From contig CM041197.1 in the NCBI GenBank assembly GCA_023078555.1, positions 3,010,501 to 3,074,500 of the forward strand: DNA of 64,000 nt, given 5' to 3'. Under the pieces are notes generated by a model. That model made no database searches. It was not told the origin of the DNA and was given only the letters and a program-made list of their open reading frames with translations. The translations under genes were made by a program, and so were the position numbers. Of the stretch, positions 3,133-28,023 are shown piece after piece. Every line of letters begins with the position of its first letter. Within the stretch, counting starts at the first letter, position 1. The stretch is from Ulva prolifera (lineage: Eukaryota > Chlorophyta > Ulvophyceae > Ulvales > Ulvaceae).

Positions 3133-6100
3133 GTGCGCTTCCCCCCACCCCCTCTGTGCCTCTTAGCAAGAATCCCGTGGCGTGGATTGCCCAACTGGTG
3201 CCTGCGGTTGCGACGCCTGCTGGCATGGGGGGCACTTGCACTGACCAGTAGTCTGTACTGCTACAAGCGTGGTACGAAAGCCTGGGATCCGTTAGCTCCA
3301 CGCCATCTGAAGAGTGATGTCCCAGACCGCAGGCATCAGCTGTGCTATCGATGCCCTGTGCTTGTGCTGTACTGCAGCGGTACTGAAGGCTGACCCTGCT
3401 GCGCAGGCGTGGATGTTGAGGGCATAGATGCCCTGTGAAGCAGCTGCGGATTGCATTCGCCACAGATGCTGTCGAGAGCAATCGCCAGATGCCTCCAGAA
3501 CCGTCGGGACGAATTGAACGATGCACGCTGCGCTGTCGATGTATATGAGCTGCGCATATCTACAGATACACGCGGCGCTGCGCTGAGCTGTCGATGTAGA
3601 TGCACGAACGCATTCGGCCCCACCATGGACCTTTCCTGGCGGCTGTAGGGGGGTCTGAAAGCCTCCCCTGGAACAGCTGCCACCTTTCTCGGGCCGCCGG
3701 AGTGCGCTCGGATTTCCACATCATGATGGTCAGGTCGTAGCAACATGTTGATGTGCGGCCACTGATGGCCGCGAGATGGCGACATGCCGTATGTGCGGAT
3801 GCATGCCTGGCGGGCGGCTGCGCCGGCTGCCGGCTGCAAGTGAAGAAGGGCGCCGCTGGCGCATGATGACTGGCGAGGGCTGCCGCGATGATGCCGAAGC
3901 GGCCATGCATGATGCCGCACGCCCCGAGCGGATGCACCCCCTGCGCATGGCCGCAGGAGATACCAAAACCAAGACAAAACTGGTTTTTTTTTTAACTTAC
4001 AAATTTTTTTGTCGCACCCACTGGGCAAGCCAAGCCCGCCCGGCCTGCCATCGCCGTCGATGCGTGTGAAGCCTTGTTGTCAGGCCACCCGCACGCATGG
4101 GCCTTTGCTGTGCAGCCGCCCGTGCTACCCCCGCCTGCGAGGCCGCAAGCTGTGCCCACGCACTTGTGTCCCTTGCATGGCCGGGCCCTTGGTGTGGAGT
4201 GGGTAGCCTGCTCATGCATTGCCGTGCTCCAGCCAGAGAGCCTGAACCGGGCTGCCTGCATGGCATGCATGTGCGTCAGTCGCCCCCTGTGCAGTCCACC
4301 GCGGTGTGCTCATGGCGCTCTGCAGATGCCTGGGGCCGCTCCACGGCCGAGGCATGTGTACATTTCTGTACAGATCATCAGTTGGCCAGCTTGGCAACTG
4401 GCTGTGTGTGTTTGGTGTAGGCACCGCGGGTGCTGTCTCCTGGGGCACTTCCACATTGCGATGTGGCTCAGAGATGGAAATAACAAGATACGATTTCTCA
4501 GGCATGTCTGGGCGCCTCTGGGTGGCTGTTCTATTCCTGGCCCGGGTGTCCTAGAGATGAGTCTGTTGTGATCAGTAGCTGGCTGGTAGCTTGCAGTACA
4601 TGAACAGGTACATGTCATGGGGTGGGGGCCCTGCTTGTGGCCCCTGCCACGGCCCGCCGATCGATGTTCAGCGCTTCAGCAGCTGTACTTGCTTCACAAC
4701 GTCTTGTGCTCGACGCCGGCCTGGAGTGTGTCGAGGGCAGCCGGACGTGCCCCTCAAGGTGCCTTGCTGCACAGAGGTTCTAGAAAAACCTCGCTGTGGA
4801 GCTGTCTGTAAAGTAGAATAACGTAATCTGGACAACGCACAAACTCTGATGCACTGAGCCATCGATTGATTGGACCATGGCCACTCCGACCGGCCTGGAT
4901 CACATGCCATTGTGGTGTCCCACTGAGATGTTTCCTCAGAGAACATACTTGCCAGCACACCTCACAGGGCATCGGCCTGGGAGAAGGAGATGGACATGCA
5001 GTGCGGTTTCGACCCCACAGCGCACACCATGCACACAGAACTGTGCCCGTGGGACACGAGTTTAGCTTTTCGAGCAACGATAGCCAGGCGTTCCTCTGCA
5101 TGCTGATGGAGCATTGGTATCTCTGTTACCAGAACTGTGTGCCAAGAGAGGCATCAGCATGTGTGTGGCCAGAACCCCATGATGCATGTGCTGTGTGACA
5201 ACCGATCCGCATGTCCTCGATGGAGCACTGCTGGTGTCCGGGCGTGCGTGCATGGACGGCAATCATCTGCGATGCTGCGCACAAGACACACACTCCCGTG
5301 GACTCCTGTTTGAACTTCATGCAAATGTCACCGTGCAGCATGTTCCGGCCATGCTGGAGGTCGCAGCTGATGAGCCACGTGTGGGATCTGCCAGAGGTGT
5401 CGGGTGCCATGGCCGTCCTGGCGCCGCACTCAGGCCTCCTCACAGTGGCCTTGGGTCTTCCCAAAGCCCCGTATGCTGGCTGAGCGTGACAGGGCTGCAC
5501 AGCCCTCACTGCACAGCCCTCACTACATCGATGCCGCCTCCTCAGTTGCAGGCCTTGCCTCGAGGCAGCCTGCGCCATCCTGGCAGTCAGGGTGCAGCTG
5601 CGGGTGGATGTGTGCGGCAGGCAGCCGGCGTGGTGCATGGGTGGCATGGGCACGCAGGCACAGACTCTGGTCGTTGATGGTGAAGTACAGTGAACCTAGA
5701 CCTACTGAGACTGACTGGGCCACATGCCGAACGGGCAAACCACCTGGAAACCCCCCGCCGACAACCCCCCTCGACAACCCCCTTCGGCAACCTGACGCAA
5801 TTCACAGGGCTTCCTCCTGTGCTGAGGGAGGTTGTCATGCATGGTGTGTCGCATGGTCAAAGGCGGAGACGCCGGTGCCACCGCAGGCAGCCACCCCAGG
5901 GGCAAGCGCGCTGCGCACGCAAGCCACTGCCGTCACCCCACAGCCACCGCAACCCTGGAACACGGCTCGGCTACTGTGTCACAAGGATACAGCTCGGTCA
6001 CTGTGGGGGTGGTGCAGGGGGTCTGAGCCTGCACGGGCTTGCTCATACACGCCTGGCCCACAGTTCGGCAGGGGAATGCTGAGCGTATATTGGGTTCCAC

Positions 6101-6203
6101 CTTTGATTCGGCGTGGAGTGCGTGCATCTCCGGGCAGCGTACCAACTCCACCCACCGCCGTCCCTTGCACGTTGACTGCAAAGGCAGCCCCCACCCGCTG
6201 TTG
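3133..6203. other. Intergenic stretch
   Basis: No convincing coding exon was seen. It holds T-rich runs at about 3985-4010 and a short direct repeat (cacagccctcact) near 5500-5530. One copy of a dispersed repeat lies at 5677-5757. Confidence 0.4.
5677..5757 (-). repeat. Dispersed repeat copy R1
   Basis: The reverse complement matches 28676-28800: a shared ggtttccaggtggttt core, the PFG-coding block, then a tcagta..gta..ttcactgtactt tail. The middle block present in R3 and R4 is missing, so this copy carries an internal deletion. Confidence 0.6.
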
Positions 6204-7510
6204 TCATGCGTCTGCAGAGGAAACGCGCGTCGATACTCCAGCCCGCCTCCGCGATTGCAGTGTTGTCGACAGCCAATGGAGTCCTTCATACAGCCCCTCG
6301 CCCCTGCAGCCAGAGGAGCGAAATTGTTGTGTGTACACCCCAGCCTGGGCCAGGTGCTGGTTCCTATGATTGGTAGTCCCATGATCCGCACCTATTCGCC
6401 ACACATGGCTGCACATGCCACGGTCGTCCTGTCAGCGTATGCAACTGGAATGCCTCTGTCACCTCAGCAGTTGTACACGCCCCTGGCTGCAAGCACCGAC
6501 TGAGAGGTGGGCGCTATGTCGCAGCATGGGCAAGGACACACGCAACATTGCAGGCACTGAGAGGCTCACCAGATCTTGCTTGTTGGCGAAAATCAGAATG
6601 GCGCTACTTGCCAGGAGAGGATGCTCCACAGTGAACTGCGACCTCATGCTGTTGTCACTGTGTGGTTACATCTGATGGCATCGCTGATGCACACTGCTGC
6701 TGACACTGTGGACCGACAAGAAGTGTCGGATAAGCTGGTGCATCATGGAGTCGGAGCACACCTGGAACTCTTCGGCTGCGATCCCTATACGATCTCTATC
6801 TGCTGTATCCACCACAAAGATCAGTGCATCTGTGTTGTTGAAGTAGTGCTTCCATAGAGGACGCAAATGGCGCAGGTGCCCAGGGTCCCAACTTGCGAAT
6901 TCAACGTTCCTGTATCGTAATGTTTCGAGGCCGAAACCTGCGAGCGGTGTACGATATTATAGTATCACAAGTACGATCCCCGAGGAGTGACATACACGTG
7001 ACACGGCCATGCCAAACGTCAACGGTCAGTGCGAGGGCGTGCGAGGGCCACTTAGATCTAATTGAGATTTACAGCAAGAACACGTTTTTGCAGCAGTGCT
7101 GAAAATATAGGTACCGCACCAATGGTTGGGACGGTGGTCACTATCTTTCCGAGTTTCACCTTGTACAGAATTGTCGTTTTTCCAGCTGCGTCAAGTCCAA
7201 GCATGACAACCTACAGTATATGACATGATTCTCACGAACAGTTTACGCATCGCGTCGGCTGATCGCGTCCAGTGGCTGGCTTTGTGCTGTAACGGGCACT
7301 TGACAGTCCGTACCCGAGTCTCTTGATTACCAAAGCGGGCGTCGAAGAGCTTTGTGAAAGCATTTCCCATGATTTGAGAATCTCATCAGATCACATACAC
7401 GACAACGGAGTCAGTTACGCTCGGGTCATCTTGCCGCAATGCACGGCACAGCCGGCTTGTCGAGCACAAACGATGCTGCTGCATGCTCTACACCATGTAG
7501 ACGACTTGCT
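6196..7510. repeat. Tandem segmental duplication, left unit
   Basis: About 1.3 kb that recurs at roughly 8529-9850 in the same orientation. It contains one complete ARF-like gene plus about 140 bases upstream of its start. Identity is very high (a few differences per 120 bases) from 6200 to about 6615, introns included, and falls to roughly 70-75% from there to 7370. The left edge is clear and the right edge fades near 7500. Confidence 0.85.
6204..7370 (-). CDS. ARF-like small GTPase, copy 1 (G3 motif altered)
   Basis: ADP-ribosylation-factor family GTPase of 194 residues (ARFs are about 181). Exons, 5' to 3' on the minus strand: 7370-7314, 7210-7120, 6937-6762, 6635-6570, 6486-6392, 6303-6204. 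All have GT/AG borders and matching phases. The N-terminus MGNAFTKLF keeps Gly2 for myristoylation. The P-loop is GLDAAGKTT, switch I is TTVPTIGF and G4 is ANKQDL. The C-terminus [11 protein letters not shown] matches ARF. The G3 region, WDVGGQDK in ARF1, reads WDPGHLRH, so the invariant DxxG glycine is His and the catalytic Gln (ARF1 Gln71) is Leu. The G5 TCAT is replaced by CVAN. ARFs recruit coats and effectors to membranes when GTP-bound. This copy is expected to hydrolyse or switch abnormally, but it has no stop or frameshift, so I call it a gene. The start is the only ATG giving the ARF N-terminus. Confidence 0.88.
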
Positions 7511-8536
7511 GATTCGCCCGCCTGCCGCCTCGATCATTGTCACAACATGTGGAAGGCGCAGTGTTTGTGCACGCCGCCTTACGCAGCCTGCTCTTGCACA
7601 GTTGGCACCCGCTTGTGAGTGTGACAAGGGCACACAGTCAGCAGAGTCCCATCGTTGACAGTCGGGGAGGCAGGCAGCTCCGCCGGGTCAACATACAGGG
7701 TCAACATACAGGGTTTAGCAACGTCACCGCCAACAGTGGAGTCACAGCACCGCACGCATGTCACCGGCACCCGCCCTGTTGTGTGCTCCTGTCGGGGATG
7801 CGGTCAAAACTCTTGCATGCTGCAGCGGGTTGTGGCCGTACCGCGATGTCGCATCTGCAGAGCCACATGCGGCCTCTGACTGTGCATCCAGCAGTTCGCT
7901 GGTGCTGTGGCTGCCTTTGCATTCTCATGGCCCACATGTCGGCCTGATCGAATCTGCGTTGGCCCCCCAGAAGCCCACTACAGCCGCGCTGAACAGTTCA
8001 GCAGGCTTGAGCGTCACTGGCCATGTTAATGCCAGGCCGGGCCAGCATTCCTCGCGCGGAGTCTGTGTGTACGTTGGCTTCCAGATTCGTGCCAGCAAGG
8101 GGTGCGTGCATCGCGTGGTTGAGTCAAACCCAACCACCATCAAGCGTCGAAGACGCCGCCCTGCTGGCCCAACGTGTATGCAGATGCATGGGGAGGAGTG
8201 TCCGTGGGGGGCCTCCGTGCATGCGGGGGCTGTCATGGACATGTGCCCTGGTGGAGTTGGAGCCCTTGTGATGTCGGACAATGCGTCCAGCAGCTCCACC
8301 GGCCGCGGAGCCGGCCGCGGAGCCTCCTCTCTCGAAGGCCTCCACGAGAACGGTCCCTGGGTTTGTTACAGACCAGTTTCACCACCCAGCCGAGAAGAAG
8401 GCACGATGACTCGGCATGCAGCGCCGCCACACGCCGAGGCGTCACGGCACCAGCCTGAACTACGGCACATAGACGATTCAGGTTCAGGACGCCCTACTCC
8501 GGGGCAGCATAGCACAGCACAGGCCCCCCGCGACAG
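7371..8536. other. Spacer between the two ARF-like genes
   Basis: The first 140 bases are shared with the region upstream of copy 2 (9707-9850) and probably hold the promoter. Near 7688-7715 the block gggtcaacataca is repeated twice. The rest shows open frames without motifs, and no gene is supported. Confidence 0.45.
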
Positions 8537-9850
8537 TCATCCGTCGGCAGACGAAACGCGCGTCGATTCTCCAGCCCGCCTCTGCGATTGCAGTGTTGTC
8601 GACAGCCACTGGAGTCCTTCATACAGCCCCTCGCCCCTGCAGCAAGAGGAGCGAAATCGTTGTGTGTACACCCCAGCCTGGGCCAGGTACTGGTTCCTAT
8701 GATCGGTAGTCCCATGATCCGCACCTGGTGGCCACACATGGCTGCACATGCCACGGTCGTCCTGTCAGCGTATGCAACTGGAATGCCTCCGTCACCTCAG
8801 CAGTTGTACACGCCCCTGGCTGCAAGCACCGACTGAGAAGTGGGCGCTATGTCGCAGCATGGGCAAGGACACAAGCAACATTGCAGGCACTGAGAGGCTC
8901 ACCAGATCTTGCTTGTTGGCGAAAATCAGAATGGCGCTACGTCGCAGAAGAGGATGCTCCACAGTTTTCTGCAACCTCATGCGCTTGTCACTGTGTGGTT
9001 ACATCTGATGGCATCGCTGATGCACACTGCCGCTGACACTGTGGATTGACAAGAAGTGTCCGATAAGCTGGTCCATCAATGGTGTCGGAGATCACCTGGA
9101 AGTCTTCGACTGCTTCCGCTTTACAAAGCCTGTCAGCTGCGTCAAGCACAAAGATCAGTGCATCTGTGTTGTTAAAATAGTACTTCAACAGAGGTCGCAA
9201 TTCTCCACGATGCCCAAGGTCCCAAACTGTGAATTGAACGTTCCTGTATCGGACTGTGTCGACGCTGAAGCCTGCAACAGGTGTACCACATTACCGTATG
9301 TCAAATACGGTGCCTGAGATGTGACACACATGCGATACAGCCATGCCCAACGTCCACGCTCAGTGTGAGGGCGTGCGAGAGCCAGCCAGTCTTGACTGAA
9401 ATTCAAAGCAAGAATATTCTTTTATGGCAGTGCTGAATTTGTAGACATCGCACCAATTGTTGGGATAGTGTTCGATATCTCTCCGAGCTGCAGCTTGTAC
9501 AAAATTGTCGTTTTCCCAGCTGCATCACGTCCAAGCATAACAACCTACAGTAAATGATGTGAGACTCGTGTGTAGTTTTTTAAGCGTCACGTCGGCTGAT
9601 CGCATTCAGTGGCTTGCTTTGTGCTATAACGGCACTTGACAAGCAGTACCCGCGTCTCTTGATTACCAAAGCAGGCGTTTAAGAGCTTTTTGAAAGCATT
9701 GCCCATGATTCAGAGATCTCTGCAGATCAGGTACGCGACAACGGAGTCAGTTACGCTTGGGTCAACTGGCAACGCAATGCAGGGAACGATCGGCCCGTCG
9801 AGCATAAACGATGCTGCTGCGATGCTTTACACCATATGGCCGACTGCCTG
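8529..9850. repeat. Tandem segmental duplication, right unit
   Basis: Second copy of the unit at 6196-7510, same orientation, offset about 2.33 kb. It holds a full ARF-like gene with exon lengths identical to the first. Confidence 0.85.
8537..9706 (-). CDS. ARF-like small GTPase, copy 2 (G3 motif altered)
   Basis: Paralogue of the gene at 6204-7370, also 194 residues. Exons on the minus strand: 9706-9650, 9544-9454, 9271-9096, 8968-8903, 8819-8725, 8636-8537. Their lengths (57, 91, 176, 66, 95, 100) equal those of copy 1. The N-terminus MGNAFKKLL keeps the myristoylation Gly. The P-loop reads GRDAAGKTT, with the usual Leu replaced by Arg. Switch I is NTIPTIGF, G4 is ANKQDL and the C-terminus is [12 protein letters not shown]3 reads WDLGHRGE where ARF1 has WDVGGQDK, so the DxxG Gly is again His and the Gln is Arg. 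The frame is intact throughout. The 3' half, introns included, is nearly identical to copy 1 while exons 1-3 differ substantially. Both copies may be an atypical GTP-locked or nucleotide-insensitive ARF subfamily, which is inference. Confidence 0.87.
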
Positions 9851-10535
9851 GCACGTAAGCAATGCTTGAAAGCACTTTCTCTTCTCGATTACATGTATGC
9901 GTGCCGTACGCGGCCTCGTTTGGCTTGCAGTCGCAGCCAATCGCTATAGCGTCTTCACGGCGAGGGGTCGCCAGCATGTGCAGTGAAGCTCGCGGGCAGC
10001 TACCTAGTCGGCCATACGATTTGCGGCCTGAAGCGCTGTCATATTGGAATTTCGAAGTCGCTGTGAAGTTGCTGCATTGTGTCGAGGTGTTGCCAGTGCC
10101 AACTTGCCACTCAGGGAACAGTTGATAAACTCGCACGCAGAGCGGCCAGGCCTTAAAGGCTTACTAATCTGCTACATCATAGTACTGTGTGCTACTTGTT
10201 CATCTGGACGTGGTGTCGGGGCGACGTTGTGTTCCAGCTTCGCAGACGGGGTCACCCCGGATGACTCATCCGGGTGACACGGGTGCACGGCCCCACGAAC
10301 AATAAACGCAGCATGTTGTATACTATATAGTACACAGTAGTAGATACAGCCGCAGAACAAGCCCATGCGAGCACACTTTGGCGCGTGTGTACATGCCGGT
10401 CTAACGTGATCATATGGCGACGGGGTGCTGATGCCAAGCCTGTGTGTGTGATCTCCTGCTTTGATGATAATTAAAAAGCAATAAAGCATATTTATATATG
10501 CTATTTCAAGACATTGTGTCACGGATATCCCATCT
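9851..10535. other. Intergenic, upstream of tRNA-Trp
   Basis: Nothing coding is supported. An A/T-rich patch (about 10460-10500) lies just before the tRNA gene. Confidence 0.4.
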
Positions 10536-10607
10536 GGCTTCTTGGCGCAATGGTAGCGCATCTGACTCCAGATCAGAAGGTTGCAGGTTCGAGTCCTGTA
10601 GGGGTCA
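10536..10607 (+). tRNA. tRNA-Trp (anticodon CCA)
   Basis: A 72-base cloverleaf without an intron. The D arm is GCGC/GCGC around AATGGTA. The anticodon arm is TCTGA-CTCCAGA-TCAGA with anticodon CCA. The variable loop is AGGTT and the T arm is GCAGG-TTCGAGT-CCTGT. The acceptor stem GGCTTCT/AGGGGTC pairs with three G-T wobbles, and the discriminator base is A. From the D arm through the variable loop it closely resembles plant nuclear tRNA-Trp. CCA is not encoded, as expected for a eukaryotic nuclear gene. The internal A and B boxes (tagcgca.. and ggttcgagtcc) are present. Confidence 0.93.
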
Positions 10608-10611
10608 CACC

Positions 10612-10615
10612 TTTT
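10612..10615 (+). terminator. RNA polymerase III terminator for tRNA-Trp
   Basis: A TTTT run five bases after the tRNA 3' end fits a Pol III stop signal. Confidence 0.6.
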
Positions 10616-12648
10616 GTCGCTCCAGAGAGCAGCTGGAGGCAATGTTTCTCTCAGCCACTGGTCGGGATATGCAGTGTTACCGCCTCTGCCGCCCTGCCTG
10701 CTTGTGAAACTCCCATGCTGCACATTGTGCAACACCAAGGCGTGCCAAACCGTGCGCACACGATGAGAACAAGCAGGGTGCTGCCTTCTGAGAACCGCCC
10801 TTCCGATTGCGTCTGCATTAAACCTGATATGGCTTGCTACATTAATACAGATCCTAACTACAGTCAGGCTACTTCGAGCTAGGGCCCCTGGCCCCATTCA
10901 TTGACTCTATTACGCCCTACCGGGAGATAATATGTACACACTCCTCGTGTGTATCCGGGAGGGGACACTCGCGAGGAGGCCTTTTTGTCTGCGTGTTCCC
11001 GTCTGTCTCCTGTCTTGCAGGCATTGTGGTGAGAGCCTTTGGTTCGTCTACACTCCGCTGATGCCTTCACGGCATGCATCGCTCGTGCACGCATCGGGGC
11101 AGTTCTGCCACCTGCCCCGTCAGCACATCTTGCTCGGCATGTGTGGCAATCCAGAGTCATGTCCGCTATACCGCTATACTGGCTCCTTGCACGTCACGGC
11201 ACAGCGTGTCTCCGCCGTTGCGGATTCGGTGCCGCAGTTGCTCGCAAAGGCCTGGTCCGCATGACAGTGTGCCTCTGGTGTCACGTGGAGTGGTGTAGCA
11301 GTCGTGCTGGTTGTGGGTGTCGATGGTGTCAGTGGTGATGCTGGGGTGCCGGGTGTTGCAGTTCGCCCGTCCCCTATCGCAAAATTGGTTTGTGTTCGTG
11401 GCGTGAGTCATGGTCTGCAACGACATGTAGAGTGGGTGCCTCTTTCGGTCCCGCATTTCCATGTTGTACCTGTGCAAATGGACATGGGTGTGCACAAAGT
11501 GTTTATTGATCATGTAAGAGTGCATGCATACAGCTTTCTCTTTGCTCTGTTTCTGACATATATTCACCTTTTTTTGGGTTTGCATTCGATGCCCGACCTG
11601 CTATGCGCCACGCTTTTCAGCTTCAGCATTGCTGGTGCGCACGTTTCACATGCATTACGCTGTCTACCGCTCGACACATGGTAGGGGTCTGCGGTGGTGT
11701 AGCTGCTCGGCTTGCGGAGCCATGGCTTCTCCATCACAGACGCCACTTGTGATTCAGCAGTGCAGCAGGACGTTGCTTGCATTGCATCGGCGGCGGCTGA
11801 TCACAAAAGTAAACGGCAGAAAACTTACACTGTGCTGCAGTGTCGAGCTACTGAAGAGTGCACCCTGCAGCCACACTACACACCCCCCTCCTACAACACC
11901 ACCGCAGCCATACAGGATGCAATGGCCTCACCCTGCGACTGCTGTCGACATTCTCAGGGAACGCTGACACGAAGGCCTCCCCCTGTTTCGCTTTCCTAGC
12001 TCCCTTGTGGCACGACGCTCTACTCTCTCTCTACGACAACCTACCATGATCTCTTGCTACAATCTCGAGCAGCTCATGCAGCAACTGCAACAGTCACAAC
12101 TGTCAACGTATCCATGACTGTGAAAAGCGGGTACACTGTGCACCCAGGCGCACCCTTGTGGCACCTACACAAGGGGCACTACAGCAGAGGCCGTCTCAGC
12201 AGCGCCACCAAGCCGCACCTCTCCTCCTCGGCGTGGACACTCCTGGGTCCGCACACACGGCCGCTTCCTGATATTCATCCTCGCCTGAATACTGCAGGCC
12301 TAAGAAGCACATTGAATCATGCGTACATTCGGGCATCACCCACACCTCAGTGCCGCGAAACAATTGAATGATCACGCTCGCTGCGACGCCGCAACATCGG
12401 CCCCATGGGTGCAGCCGCCCCGTCAACCCCGCAATGCCTCCATGCAGTCATCCCAACACGGGCTCGTGTCCCCGACCGCCTGGACGCGGAGAGGTACAGA
12501 CCTTCTGATGTTGACGTTGTGCCGAGTCTTCGGTTGGTGCTCAAGCAGAACTCTACAGACTCTGCACATGAGACAGGCCACACAGGGTGCGCGCCCGCGT
12601 GTCCTACAACACAGCGTACACATGCCGCGGCAGCCTCGCCCGGCCCAT
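10616..12648. other. Intergenic stretch
   Basis: Open frames on both strands carry no recognisable domain. This region probably includes the 3' UTR of the bestrophin gene that ends at 12649 on the minus strand. Confidence 0.4.
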
Positions 12649-20814: not shown

Positions 20815-23800
20815 CTAATCCTCCACAATCTCCCACACACCAATCGCCCAGGACACCAGCTTCGTCCGCGGCAGCTCTCCGGCCGGCGGCGGCGTCAGCT
20901 CGGGCGGCGTCCCATGGGTCGGCAGTGGCGCCTGCACGCCTGTGGCCACACTCTCCAGCACCGCCTTCCCCTCGTCCCCACCGCCCTGGCCCTCCATCAG
21001 CTTCACCACGCGCAGCCGCGGCATGCTCTCCAGCGCCGCCGCGAGCAGCCGCGCGCCCCCCAGCCCCACCATGTTCCCCGTCAGGTCCAGCGAGTCCAGG
21101 GCCGACATCTTCGGCACCTCCGCCAGCACCTCCCCCACAGCCACCTCTGGGACCTCACAGCCGTGCAGGCGCAGCCGGGTGAGCCCGGGGTGCGGCGCAA
21201 CGGCGCGCGCAATGTCCACCGCCGCCGCGCCAAGTTCGTTTCTCCCGAGGTCAAGGTACCGGAGCGCCGTCATATGGCGCAGCGCGCGCGCAAGCGCCCG
21301 CCCCTCTGCTTCGCCGATGCCCCCGACCTGACTGCGGAAAACCCTGAGCGCCGAGAGGGTCGTGCATGCGGCCGCGAACGCTGGCCAGAAGGCGGGCGAG
21401 CACCCCCATCCGGACAGAGCGAGGGCTGTCAGCTCCACGCAGCGCGCCCAGCACGGCACGAGCGCGGCTTCGAGGCGCTCCGGCAGGGAGAAGTCGTCGA
21501 GCTGCAGCTGCTGCAGCGAGGAGTGGCGGCGGAACACCGGCAAGAGGCCGGAGAGCGGCGCGTCGTCGTCGAAGCGCAAGCCGGACAGGGTCAGCTTGCG
21601 GAGGCGCGGCAGGTCGGGGAGCGCCGCGAGCATGGGCGCCGGGTCATCGCAGAAGAAAGAGTCGTGAACGCGAACTTCCCGCAGCGTGCTCCAGAGCGCG
21701 CGCAGGCACGCTGCGAGCGGCGGCGCGGCCGGGTACTCGTTGCAACTCGAGTCGAGGGCGAGCGTTGTGAGGGCGGTGAGCGCGGCCGCGGCGGCGAAGA
21801 AGCGCGAGCCCGGGCGGCAGTGCGCACGCATCGCGCCCAGGTAGCTCAGCTCCGGCAGGTCGCGGCACGCCTCCACGACAGCGGTGAGGCCGTCGCCGTC
21901 GTCCACGACGAGCTGCCGCAGCGTCGTGAGCTGCGCGGCCGCAGCCGCGAGCGCCGGCACGGACGCGTCGGGGGCTTTCGGGAGCTGCAGCCGCGTCACG
22001 GAGCCGAGGGTGGTGAGCAGGGCTGAGAGGGCCGCGGTGGTGCATGGCGAGTGCGGGGTGAGCCACCAGGCGTCGATCGTCACTTCTGTGTGCGGTTTCG
22101 GGCGGGGCAGGCCTGCAACTGCTGAGATGACGGCTGCTTTCTCAGAGCCCGACCACTTGGAGGGAGGGGCAGCATTGCCCCGAAGGGGCAGCATCGGCTG
22201 CGGCTCACGCTCGGCAAAGTCCAGGCGGCGGGGGGTGCGGGTGGCGGCAGGCAGGAAGAGGGCCTCAACGGCATGCCCGTGGCTGGAGGGGGGGAGGAGC
22301 TTGATGCAGCGGAGGAGTGTGGCGTGCTTGCTCTTGAAGAGGAGGGGCAGGCTCGCGGGCGGAACCCTGCTCAGCACCTGCACCACCACAGCCCGGTCGT
22401 GCGGCGGTGCTGTGAGCTCGCGGGATCACATGCACCGCAAGATGCATGAGATGTGACCGGCGCCGCGAGATGCATGAGACGTGACAGGTGCTGTGAGATG
22501 CATGAGATGTGACAGGCGCCGCGCGCGCGTGTACCGGCCACTGCATGGTTGCGTCCATGTGCAGAATGCACAATGCCGGGACTCCAATGTCGGACCCGGG
22601 ACACCAGCATCGAATGCCTTCAGCTCGGATTGAGGTGGAGTGCCTGCGTGGCGGTGCGGTGCTGGCCAGTCATACAGCCGACACGGGGCAGCCTGTGTGT
22701 CGCGGCTGTGTAGAAATTCCCTCATTGAAATTGCTGACGATTTGCAGAAAAATCGAAAGGGGGGGGGGGGGGGGGGGCACACCTCGACGTTGTACGCTGC
22801 CCGTGCGGCCTGCGCCTGAGCGTCCAGCGGCTGCTCCGTCTTTGTTGCGCGCACCGCCGGCTTCCTCTTCGAGGCAGCACTGCCGAAGAACCCCCTGGCG
22901 AGGCCGGACCCTGGCGCCGGCTTCGGCTTCACCGGCTGCACGTTGAGGGCCCCTGTCGACGGCGAGCTCGGCGCATCCTTTGCGGGGCTGAGCACGGCTC
23001 CGGCGGCCGCCGCGGCCGGTGGGGGGCCGCGAGCGGGGGCCGGGGCGTCGCCGAAGAGGTGCAGTGCAAGCCGATCGCAGCTAAGAGTGTGCGAGGCATC
23101 GTGCTGCAGGAAGTCCGCGGCCTGCAGGCGGCCTTGTGTGGTTGTGGTTGTGGTTGTGGCTGGTGCCGTCTTCATTGGCGAGAGAGACAAATGGCACGAT
23201 GGTGTGCTCCTGCGCATGCTAGGCACACCACCCGCAGTGACGTGTGCCTCATGAGGTGCAGCTGATGTCACAGTGAGAGGTGACTGCGGACTGCTGTACA
23301 TTGCATTGTGCGCCAGAATTTTGCGCAAACCCGGGATCTACTAGGGGTCACCACGGCGGTGCAGACGCTGGACTACTACTGCTGTTACACGATGCAAGTG
23401 CCCATTGACAGGCTTGTGCTCTATAGCTGTGCCTGGTGCAGATGGTCCCATTACATCTGGCTGCCAGTATCCCGCACCTGCACATGTGGCTGGTGGCCAG
23501 CACTGCACTCATCGGGCCTCGGAGGTCGAGGGCTGATCGCGAAACATGACTCTTAATGATTCGCCACATCACATGGATGCTAGTGTTCCGTCGGCAAGCC
23601 CTTCGCTGGGTGTTGAGGCAAGCCATGGCCTGGTTCGAGGCATGCAGACAGGCTAGCATGCGCACGGGCGCAACAGCGAACCTTGATGGCAGAGATGAGC
23701 TGATCGGGTGTTTGTTCCGTTGCGTCGTCGTCGGCTTCCGGTCCAGCTGCTTGCGCTACATGGAGCCACGCGTCCAGAAAGTCAGGCTCGGCCTCCTGCG

Positions 23801-25694: not shown

Positions 25695-28023
25695 TCATCG
25701 GCGGGGCCGCCGGCTGCACCCTGACTCCCATCCCCCACACCGCATCTGCAGCAGCTCCGCCTGGCACGGCAGCTCCTGTGCGAGTCCGACCATGTCCTCC
25801 ATCGGGATGTCGTGCACCGCGAGCGCGAGCTCCCGCAGCCGCCAGGCCCCCCTGAGGCCTCCCACCAGCGCCTCCACGTCCGCGACGTCCGTCAGTGCCC
25901 GGCCGAGCAGCCGCACGCGCGTCAGCCCAGGCATCCGCCGCAGCGCCGCCGCGACGGCCTCCGCTGCCCCCCGCCCCTTGAACAGCCCGCACCGCTCCAC
26001 CTCGAGCGACTCGAGTGCCCGCAGGCGGCCGAGACCGGCCGCGAGCGCCTCCTCGGCGCCCTCCGCGACCTCGCACTGCTCCACTCGCAGCTCGCGCAGC
26101 CCCTGTAGACACCCGAGCGCCTCGGGGAAGGCAGGGTCCTCCGCCGGCAGCGCGTGCGGCCAGTTGGTGGAGAGCGAGGTGAGGTACGTGAGGCGGGACA
26201 GTGCCGCGGCGGCCCCGGAGGCGACATCGGCATCCCAGAGCCGCTGTGCGACGCTGTCAAACGCGAGCACGCGCCGCGCGCACAGCACGGTGAGGCTGCG
26301 CAGCTGCCCCAGCTCGCGCAGCACGGCAGCAAGCTGCGCGGGCTCGAGAATCGTGTTGCAGAGGCTCAGCCGCGTCAGCGCCGTCTGTGCGCCGATCGCG
26401 GCCGCGAAGCGCGGCCCCGCCTCGACGGTCGAACCCGTCATCGGCCCGATCTCCAGCCGCAGCAGCGGCGGCTCCGCGGCGGCGGAGTCGCCGCTGCTGC
26501 CGCTGCCGCTGCGCTCGATGCACGCGAGCACCGCCGCGGCGGCAGCGGAGGTGATGCGGTGGTCGTGGAGGCACAGCGCGCGCAGCGCGCGCGTCGCGCC
26601 GGGGCTGTACAGCTGCTGCAGCAGCACGTGCGCGACGTCAACGTGCGAGCAGCGGCGGCTGCCGCTCAGCGGCTGCCCGGAGAGGTCGAGGTGCGTCAGG
26701 CCGGGGGGGAGGAAGCAGTTGAGGGAGCCGGGGGGGACGGGCGGGTGCGGCAACGAAGCCATCGGCCCCGGGTCCGCGGCAGTCACGGCAGCGAGGGACA
26801 GCGACCGGCACGCCGTGAGGCGCGTCAGCACGGCGAGCAGCGGCATCGCTGTGTCAGCGAGGTACTGGGAGTGCGCGAGTGAGAGGGTGTGGAGGGCGGG
26901 GAGGGCGGTGAGGGTGCGGAGGAGGGGGTGGACGTCCGCAGGGGCAATAGAGGAGTGCGTGAGGTGGAGCGCTGTGAGGGAGGGGAGGGCGGCGAGGTCT
27001 GTGGCTAGGAGGTCGATCGAGGTGTAGCCAAGGAGGGGGATGGGGGTGCGGCTGAGGGTGAGGGTGTGGAGGGCGGGGAGGGAGGGCAGGAGGGTGGTCT
27101 GGATGGCTCGGGGGAGCTCCAGGGGGATGGACTGCTGCGTGTCTGCGCGAGAGAGCGAGAGGGAGGTGAGGGTGGACAGCTGCGCAACGCCGTGGAGCAG
27201 CATCGAGAGCTCGGCTGTGCCGCGGAGGAAGTTGGAGAGGGAGAGCGTGAGTAGGGATGTGAACGACGGGAGGAGGTGGAAGAGATCGGAGAGCCAGCGG
27301 CAGTCGGTGATGTGCTTGAGCTCGAGGGTGAGCGAGTGGAGGGAGGTCAGGGATGAGAAGAGCGTGCGTGGGTCGTGGAGGTTTGTGGCGGGGAGCTGAA
27401 GGGTGAGGTGGCTACCGGGGGAAACCTGAGCCGCTATGGCTTCTGCTTGCATGTCAGCAGGGCCGTTGCAGAGCAGGGAATGGAGAGAGACCCGAGATAG
27501 GATTGTATTTCGGAGGCTGGGCGATAGGCTTTGGATGGCGTTTGAGGAATGTTGCAGTCCGACAGTGCCGCCGTGGAACTTACGTGCCCACGAGTTTGAC
27601 AACTGTGTGGCGACCTCGTTCTCCAGCTGAGGCAGCTCGGTATCGCATAGAAACTCAGCTACCTGTATTCGTATCGGTGTAATGTGCTTGTTCTGCATGT
27701 TTAGTTCCCGAACACGGTGAATGCAATGTTCAGATGCTGCCTGGAGAGCTGCGTTTTACCTTCAGGGCGTTGCACTTGTCCTCGACAGACTCGGACGAGC
27801 GATTCAGCCACAAGTAGAAATCTGACTCCCTTATAGGAAGTGGGATTGGGCCAGACGTGTTTTGCAGAGCTGAATCCAGCACAGCTGAGCGCCGGACCGC
27901 GTCTGCGGGGACAGGCAGGGCCTCAGTGCCAGTGGCACCCGACTCATCGGATTCCACGTATAAATGCTGATCTCCATCTTGTGTTGTGCGGCTGCGCAGC
28001 ATGAGATCACGCTGCATGGCCAT
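25695..28023 (-). CDS. BTB/Skp1-like domain plus leucine-rich-repeat protein 2
   Basis: Large minus-strand gene next to BTB-LRR 1 and of the same architecture. The N-terminus (28023-27760) reads LPVPADAVRRSAVLDSAL, then IPLPIRESDFYLWL, a good match to BTB/Skp1 helices. IRIQVAEFLCDTELPQL follows in the second part. From about residue 150 to the end are RNI-type leucine-rich repeats, for example LHTLTLSRTPI, LTALHLTHSSI and LTHLDLSGQPL. The two parts sit in different frames. They can be joined either by a 19-base GT..AG gap (27759-27741), giving 769 residues, or by assuming one missing or extra base in the T-run at 27754-27757, giving about 775. Both joins give a continuous amphipathic helix. 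The C-terminal LRR part alone is a single 667-codon frame from 27698. The likely role is an adaptor or scaffold, and the ligand is unknown. The start ATG at 28023 is the first in the BTB frame but an upstream exon is possible. Confidence 0.72.

Follow-up and report, generated by a model that had tools for sequence, protein, structure and literature searches.

How far can the nucleotide switch of an ARF-family GTPase be dismantled while its gene is still kept? The question is raised by two adjacent ARF-like genes, here called A and B, in a 64,000-nucleotide stretch of the Ulva prolifera genome (the window; C2:3010501-3074500 in a genome of 88.9 Mb and 44 contigs, with contigs numbered C1, C2 and so on as in this analysis). 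A first-pass annotation of this DNA read the pair as retained rather than decaying, and possibly as locked in the guanosine triphosphate (GTP)-bound state. On the sequence evidence, A and B are perhaps best described as lineage-specific pseudo-ARFs with residual coding constraint, derived by tandem duplication from a green-algal-type ARF of the lineage of a third copy, C; we put the probability of this reading at about 0.52.

Gene structure and the altered G3 loop

Exon-by-exon splicing places A and B on the minus strand at window positions 6204-9706, the exact limits given in the first-pass annotation, which had also described correctly the two full-length frames of 194 residues, the intact splice sites, the retained motifs and the G3 substitutions set out below. 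The six exons have identical lengths in the two genes (57/91/176/66/95/100 nt), neither spliced frame contains an internal stop, and GT..AG is present at all five introns of A and all five of B; damage to frame, splice sites or start is absent from both, and present in a fourth copy, D. The products match the Pfam Arf profile (PF00025) with 203.9 bits for A and 194.1 bits for B (cut-off 22.3) over profile positions 2-173 of 174, and they align without gaps to the first 178 residues of the canonical class I protein ARF1, with which they share the fold family. Both start with MGNAF and so keep Gly2, as needed for predicted myristoylation. Also kept are the P-loop, G(L/R)DAAGKT, Thr48 of switch I, Trp66, Asp67, NKQD, and the hydrophobic triad F51/W66/Y81, such that the G1 (GxxxxGK(S/T)) and G4 (NKxD) motifs of a working ARF GTPase are found in each protein.

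The G3 motif is not. Where ARFs have the loop WDVGGQ(D/E)K, A has WDPGHLRH and B has WDLGHRGE, and in place of DxxG and the catalytic Gln the two proteins have DPGHL and DLGHR; both have thus lost a nucleotide motif, one of the marks of a pseudoGTPase. Relative to ARF1 the changes are G70H in both copies, Q71L in A and Q71R in B, V68P/L and K73H/E. Codon 70 is CAC in A, CAT in B, and GGC in C, which has the canonical WDVGGQEK. By parsimony the presence of G70H in both copies makes it older than the split of A and B, whereas at positions 68, 71, 72 and 73 A and B each differ from C and from each other. Mismatches between A and B affect four of the six loop positions (68-73) and 37 of the 188 others (Fisher 0.019), and from this excess we read the loop as probably released from constraint once Gly70 had been lost.

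Further changes lie elsewhere in the G domain. B carries L25R in the P-loop and W78L and H80Y in switch II, A carries T161N in the G5 region, and N52 is altered in both (N52G/S). ARF6 numbering is that of A minus 4 (A residues 7-177 align to residues 3-173 of the ARF6 chain), so T161N of A equals ARF6 T157N, which is reported to have been employed as a fast-cycling mutant (PMC4370635).

Relatives within and outside the genome

A genome-wide DNA search with gene A returns four places, namely A, B, C (72%) and D (63%), and a search with C returns the same four. D is a broken copy: codons 40 and 78 are in-register stops, several gaps interrupt the sequence, and splice sites have been lost. Among solved proteins PDB 6a8d_A (listed as an ARF/SAR superfamily small monomeric GTP binding protein) ranks first for C (316 bits) as well as for A (258 bits), ahead of other ARF proteins; we take its organism to be Chlamydomonas. 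A literature search for 6A8D with Chlamydomonas returned no paper. In a nine-row tree a single clade (99/98) unites A, B, C and 6a8d, and within it A and B pair (100/99) and C adjoins them (82/89); 6a8d and C keep WDVGGQEK, in contrast to A and B. The tree holds A and B away from the ARL2 of this genome, and less firmly from its ARL1 (90/92), whose row is long and partial. Quartet sites favour the pairing of A and B by 85 against 18 and 7, and show only that these two belong together. A position of D beside C or beside A and B is not separated (lnL, the log-likelihood, -2426.55 versus -2427.67 and -2427.71). A G3 change shared by D (GGGCAT by eye) was considered and dropped, as the four-way alignment is ambiguous at that spot.

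The DxxG glycine is kept in all 12 other ARF-family genes of the genome whose G3 was read, C included. These are ten genes together with C2:2700119 and the ARF1 gene on contig C4, in which G3 adjoins an intron and becomes whole once that intron is spliced out; the survey set aside three places with weak PF00025 matches (C3:10503324, C4:846289 and C7:4399457) and the loop of D, which is not confidently alignable. Loss of this glycine is therefore met in A and B alone among the ARF-family genes examined. The Gln is kept in only eight of the 12, so that its loss is not rare in this genome: a SAR1-like gene has His instead, the two members of an ARL13-like tandem pair on C1 have Gly and Arg, and an ARL6-like gene on C2 has Gly (presumed subfamilies). 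All of these Gln-less genes retain the DxxG glycine, whereas A and B have lost it and derive from the ARF rather than the ARL branch.

The ARL13-like genes constitute a second tandem ARF-family pair (C1:535167-535535 and 537535-537942; assigned by eye) with DVGGG and DLGGR, the DxxG glycine being kept, and the ARL6-like gene (C2:2700119-2700754) reads DMAGG, with Gln replaced by Gly. The genome's own ARF1 is canonical, with other exon lengths (66/82/71/120/119 before the last exon). The pattern TGGGAYCYNGGNCAY occurs at 33 places genome-wide (four for the reversed control), and places with a PF00025 match coincide with it only at A and B. Eleven of the 33 are the 15-mer TGGGATCTGGGACAT, for example at C2:10473738, C3:9263226 and C4:5318940, which probably lies in a dispersed repeat.

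Outside this genome, a single-protein scan of viral contigs gave seven pattern matches and no relatives, and an alignment scan of viral contigs (IMG/VR) gave two relatives among 104 matched stretches. Both are ARF-like genes that read canonical DIGGQ, share 42% and 40% identity with the query, and sit on contigs classified as viral. An alignment scan of genome contigs gave one relative among 208, an ARF-like sequence on JAJEAQ010000118.1 in a Trichodesmium-labelled bin, where G3 is unreadable through a broken frame; it is probably eukaryotic contamination. None of these three relatives shows WDxGH, and since the collections scanned are viral, bacterial and archaeal by description, this says little about algae.

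The Ras superfamily is known to include pseudoGTPases, and the switch II Gln is absent from the atypical ARL10, ARL13A/B, ARL15 and ARL16 (PMC12722892), which like A and B have lost the catalytic Gln from a retained G domain. A limited literature search, of titles and the beginnings of abstracts, yielded neither a natural ARF lacking the DxxG glycine nor an algal pseudo-ARF. A eukaryote-wide survey of more than 2,000 ARF genes excluded extremely divergent sequences with disrupted motifs (PMC8358228), and genes of the A/B type may thus be uncatalogued and commoner than thought.

Constraint on the two copies and competing readings

The ratio of nonsynonymous to synonymous substitution rates (dN/dS, or omega) between A and B, which the first-pass annotation had proposed to estimate, is 0.52-0.60 by three approximate methods. 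In a branch codon model fitted by maximum likelihood with C and the genome's own ARF1, omega is 0.565 on the A and B branches versus 0.037 on those of C and ARF1, and equality of the two is rejected (twice the log-likelihood difference, 2dlnL, 24.6). Omega = 1 is rejected for A and B jointly, albeit modestly (2dlnL 4.98, p about 0.03). The joint rejection also holds with the stem included (omega 0.605, 2dlnL 4.12) and with D added to the model (omega 0.57 for A/B and 0.70 for D; 2dlnL 4.84 for A/B = 1), and a pairwise test of exons 1-3 rejects omega = 1 as well (2dlnL 5.29). Constraint on A and B is thus strongly relaxed and probably not absent. Positive selection on the loop was considered and is not claimed: omega on the stem exceeds 1 (12, which is the bound, or 1.7-1.8 with D added) without differing from 1 (2dlnL 0.92), and the scan p for a divergence peak at codons 68-73 is 0.032 for A-C, 0.26 for B-C and 0.34 for A-B.

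The most serious alternative is that both genes are young pseudogenes. A and B would then be duplicates of the C-type ARF which lost function in or soon after their common ancestor and, unlike D, have not yet acquired a stop or frameshift. Several results weigh for this and against retained function. Omega = 1 is rejected neither for A alone (2dlnL 2.54), nor for B alone (0.96), nor for the stem, nor for exons 4-6 in the pairwise test (1.57), and the omega of A and B is inseparable from that of the dead copy (2dlnL 0.33), for which omega = 1 also stands (1.8). Exons have changed as much as introns in A (branch lengths 0.077/0.083, ratio 0.92) and B (0.080/0.074, 1.08), like D (0.270/0.262, 1.03) and unlike C (0.105/0.216, 0.49); the inner branch between A+B and C+D has 0.079 in exons and 0.126 in introns. 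Five canonical ARFs agree at 89 positions, 15 of which are altered in A and 13 in B, and the altered key positions of the G domain include G70H, Q71L/R, L25R, W78L and N52G/S. In mean BLOSUM score the differences between A and B do not surpass the neutral expectation (P 0.25), broken D lies nearby on the same contig, and homology between A and B ends shortly past the stop codon. A TGTAA polyadenylation signal, found at +167 in B, is absent within 1200 bp downstream of A; none follows C either, and the observation is uninformative.

Decay has nevertheless to account for the integrity of both copies. In neutral simulations both remain stop-free in 4-6.5% of runs since the split, and in a fraction of 0.006-0.01 with the stem included. 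The three runs of gaps in the A-B alignment all lie in introns, with none in 585 exon positions, and none of 20 splice-dinucleotide bases differs, against 14.8% of intron positions (chance 0.852^20 = 0.04). A and B differ at 41 residues, compared to a mean of 50.7 in 1000 stop-free neutral simulations (P 0.014), and at 16 canonical-ARF invariant residues, compared to 23.3 (P 0.023). Both are also better ARFs than neutral simulation yields: no simulated descendant in 1000 reaches the profile score of A, and none in 1000 that of B (0 and 1.2%, respectively, in an earlier version). On the same 177 codons, z is 7.7 for A, 6.7 for B and 3.0 for D, which as a dead copy also beats the neutral simulation (0/500); the profile test is therefore weak in absolute terms and used in support only, and, given also the likeness of D to A and B in omega, these tests alone do not prove current function. 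The constraint may act today or may have ceased, and may bear on one copy or on both. We put decay below an even chance, and the evidence modestly favours function over it. Retained coding capacity is thus favoured modestly: joint neutrality is rejected (2dlnL 4.98 and 4.84), but neutrality of either copy separately is not, and neither the comparison with D nor that of exons with introns sets A and B apart from a dead copy.

By analogy with Q71L, A and B might instead be GTP-locked, constitutively active ARFs, as the first-pass annotation suggested, and the Leu and Arg at position 71, as well as retention of the F51/W66/Y81 triad with the role we presume for it, point that way. However, the older and shared change removes Gly70, which we take to be the equivalent of Gly60 in Ras. 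According to PMC4867591, Ras Gly60 binds the gamma-phosphate, and the G60A protein takes up the inactive conformation, state 1, and has drastically impaired GTPase activity. A simple Q71L would be expected to behave otherwise. Pro68 in A probably makes matters worse, and the loop differs between the copies, unlike selection for one particular locked loop. We regard a GTP-locked pair as improbable. Less credible still is an artefact of assembly, annotation or alternative splicing that hides a canonical G3 exon, for which nothing was found in favour. DxGGQ is absent from a six-frame motif scan of window positions 5253-8453 and 7479-10784, which required six residues before and 18 after the motif to be stop-free. 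The changes are multi-base in both copies and mutually different, and a canonical paralog, C, with exactly the same six exon lengths, together with the strong Pfam Arf scores, indicates that the odd G3 is no slip of the gene model.

For pseudo-ARFs under residual constraint we envisage that the DxxG glycine would have become histidine in the common ancestor of A and B, that the remaining G3 loop, including the catalytic Gln71, would then have been free to drift differently in each copy, and that the rest of the G domain would have been held under weak constraint. Expression, fold, nucleotide state and partners are those we infer for such a protein. It would still fold, with the P-loop and NKxD kept and myristoylation at Gly2 possible, and may bind nucleotide, mainly guanosine diphosphate (GDP), and sit at membranes. 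Without the backbone contact of Gly70 to the gamma-phosphate the GTP-bound switch would be neither made nor held; with His at 70 and no Gln, the protein, by analogy with Ras, would be expected to be incapable of switching and of hydrolysis, and to prefer GDP or an empty nucleotide site. Ras G60A, in which presumably the same DxxG glycine is replaced, is an engineered laboratory mutant, whereas A and B are a natural duplicated gene in which the Gln is lost too. Any action would dispense with the GTP cycle: the protein might compete with C or ARF1 for ARF exchange factors or for membrane sites or, alternatively, serve as a constitutive scaffold. Provided that the proteins are made, a competing or scaffold role of this kind appears the most coherent function. 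The fuller proposal, that of a natural ARF-derived pseudoGTPase pair which has lost gamma-phosphate sensing, is kept as protein, has a switch-independent role at ARF membranes or with ARF exchange factors, and evolves partly in concert by tandem exchange, is tentative, and we would put it clearly below an even chance.

If the proteins are made, the locus amounts to a natural experiment on whether a non-switching ARF can still be of use. If they are not, it is a clear example of a duplicated GTPase dying, with the DxxG glycine going early and the reading frame last. One genome offers for comparison canonical C, dead D and two separately drifted loops.

Probable tandem exchange and the flanks of the locus

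Homology between A and B begins about 141 bp upstream of the ATG and ends 13 bp past the stop codon (Table 1). It is uneven: the 3' halves, from intron 3 to the stop codon, differ at 34 of 558 positions and the part from exon 1 to exon 3 at 131 of 608 (Fisher 1e-14), in introns and exons alike. The 3' halves were probably homogenised recently, probably by gene conversion; the G3 exon lies outside them. Downstream of the stop codons, A-B homology covers only window positions 6191-6203 and 8524-8536, and A-C homology ends about 29 bp past the stop codon, and the copies A and B thus seem to be without a common 3' untranslated region.

Table 1. Coordinates of genes A and B, their parts and their relatives; positions refer to the window unless a contig is named.
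Feature	Position	Strand	Remarks
Gene A, six-exon ARF-family, 194 aa, G3 = WDPGHLRH	6204..7370	-	stop-free spliced frame, GT-AG introns, Pfam Arf
A exon 1 (Gly2, N-terminal helix)	7314..7370	-	
A exon 2 (P-loop GLDAAGKT at 7175-7198; switch I Thr48)	7120..7210	-	P-loop placed by counting from exon start
A exon 3 (interswitch, switch II)	6762..6937	-	
A codons 68-73, PGHLRH replacing VGGQEK	6867..6884	-	
A W66-H70	C2:3017376-3017390 (window 6876-6890)	-	
A exon 4 (NKQD)	6570..6635	-	
A exon 5 (G5 region, VANR with T161N)	6392..6486	-	
A exon 6 and stop	6204..6303	-	
3' half of A (intron 3 to stop)	6204..6761	-	near-identical to B 8537-9095
A-B homology around A	6191..7511	-	blastn, 84.7% over 1329 columns
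Spacer between units, 1012 bp	7512..8523	.	genome search returns itself alone
A-B homology around B	8524..9850	-	blastn
Gene B, six-exon ARF-family, 194 aa, G3 = WDLGHRGE	8537..9706	-	splicing, Pfam Arf
B exon 1	9650..9706	-	
B exon 2 (P-loop GRDAAGKT, L25R)	9454..9544	-	
B exon 3	9096..9271	-	
B codons 68-73, LGHRGE replacing VGGQEK	9201..9218	-	
B exon 4 (NKQD)	8903..8968	-	
B exon 5	8725..8819	-	
B exon 6 and stop	8537..8636	-	
Copy C, canonical relative	C3:5707668-5708831		194 codons after splicing, WDVGGQEKLRP, exon lengths identical to A and B
Copy D, dead fourth copy	C2:2991349-2992372, ~18 kb outside window		recognisable introns, stops, gaps

Beyond the tandem pair, a gene for transfer RNA-Trp (CCA) lies at window positions 10536-10608 and is the only transfer RNA gene found in the window by ARAGORN and Rfam. 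Two open frames of 524 and 667 codons, leucine-rich-repeat-like by eye, are present on the minus strand at 20815-22389 and 25695-27698.

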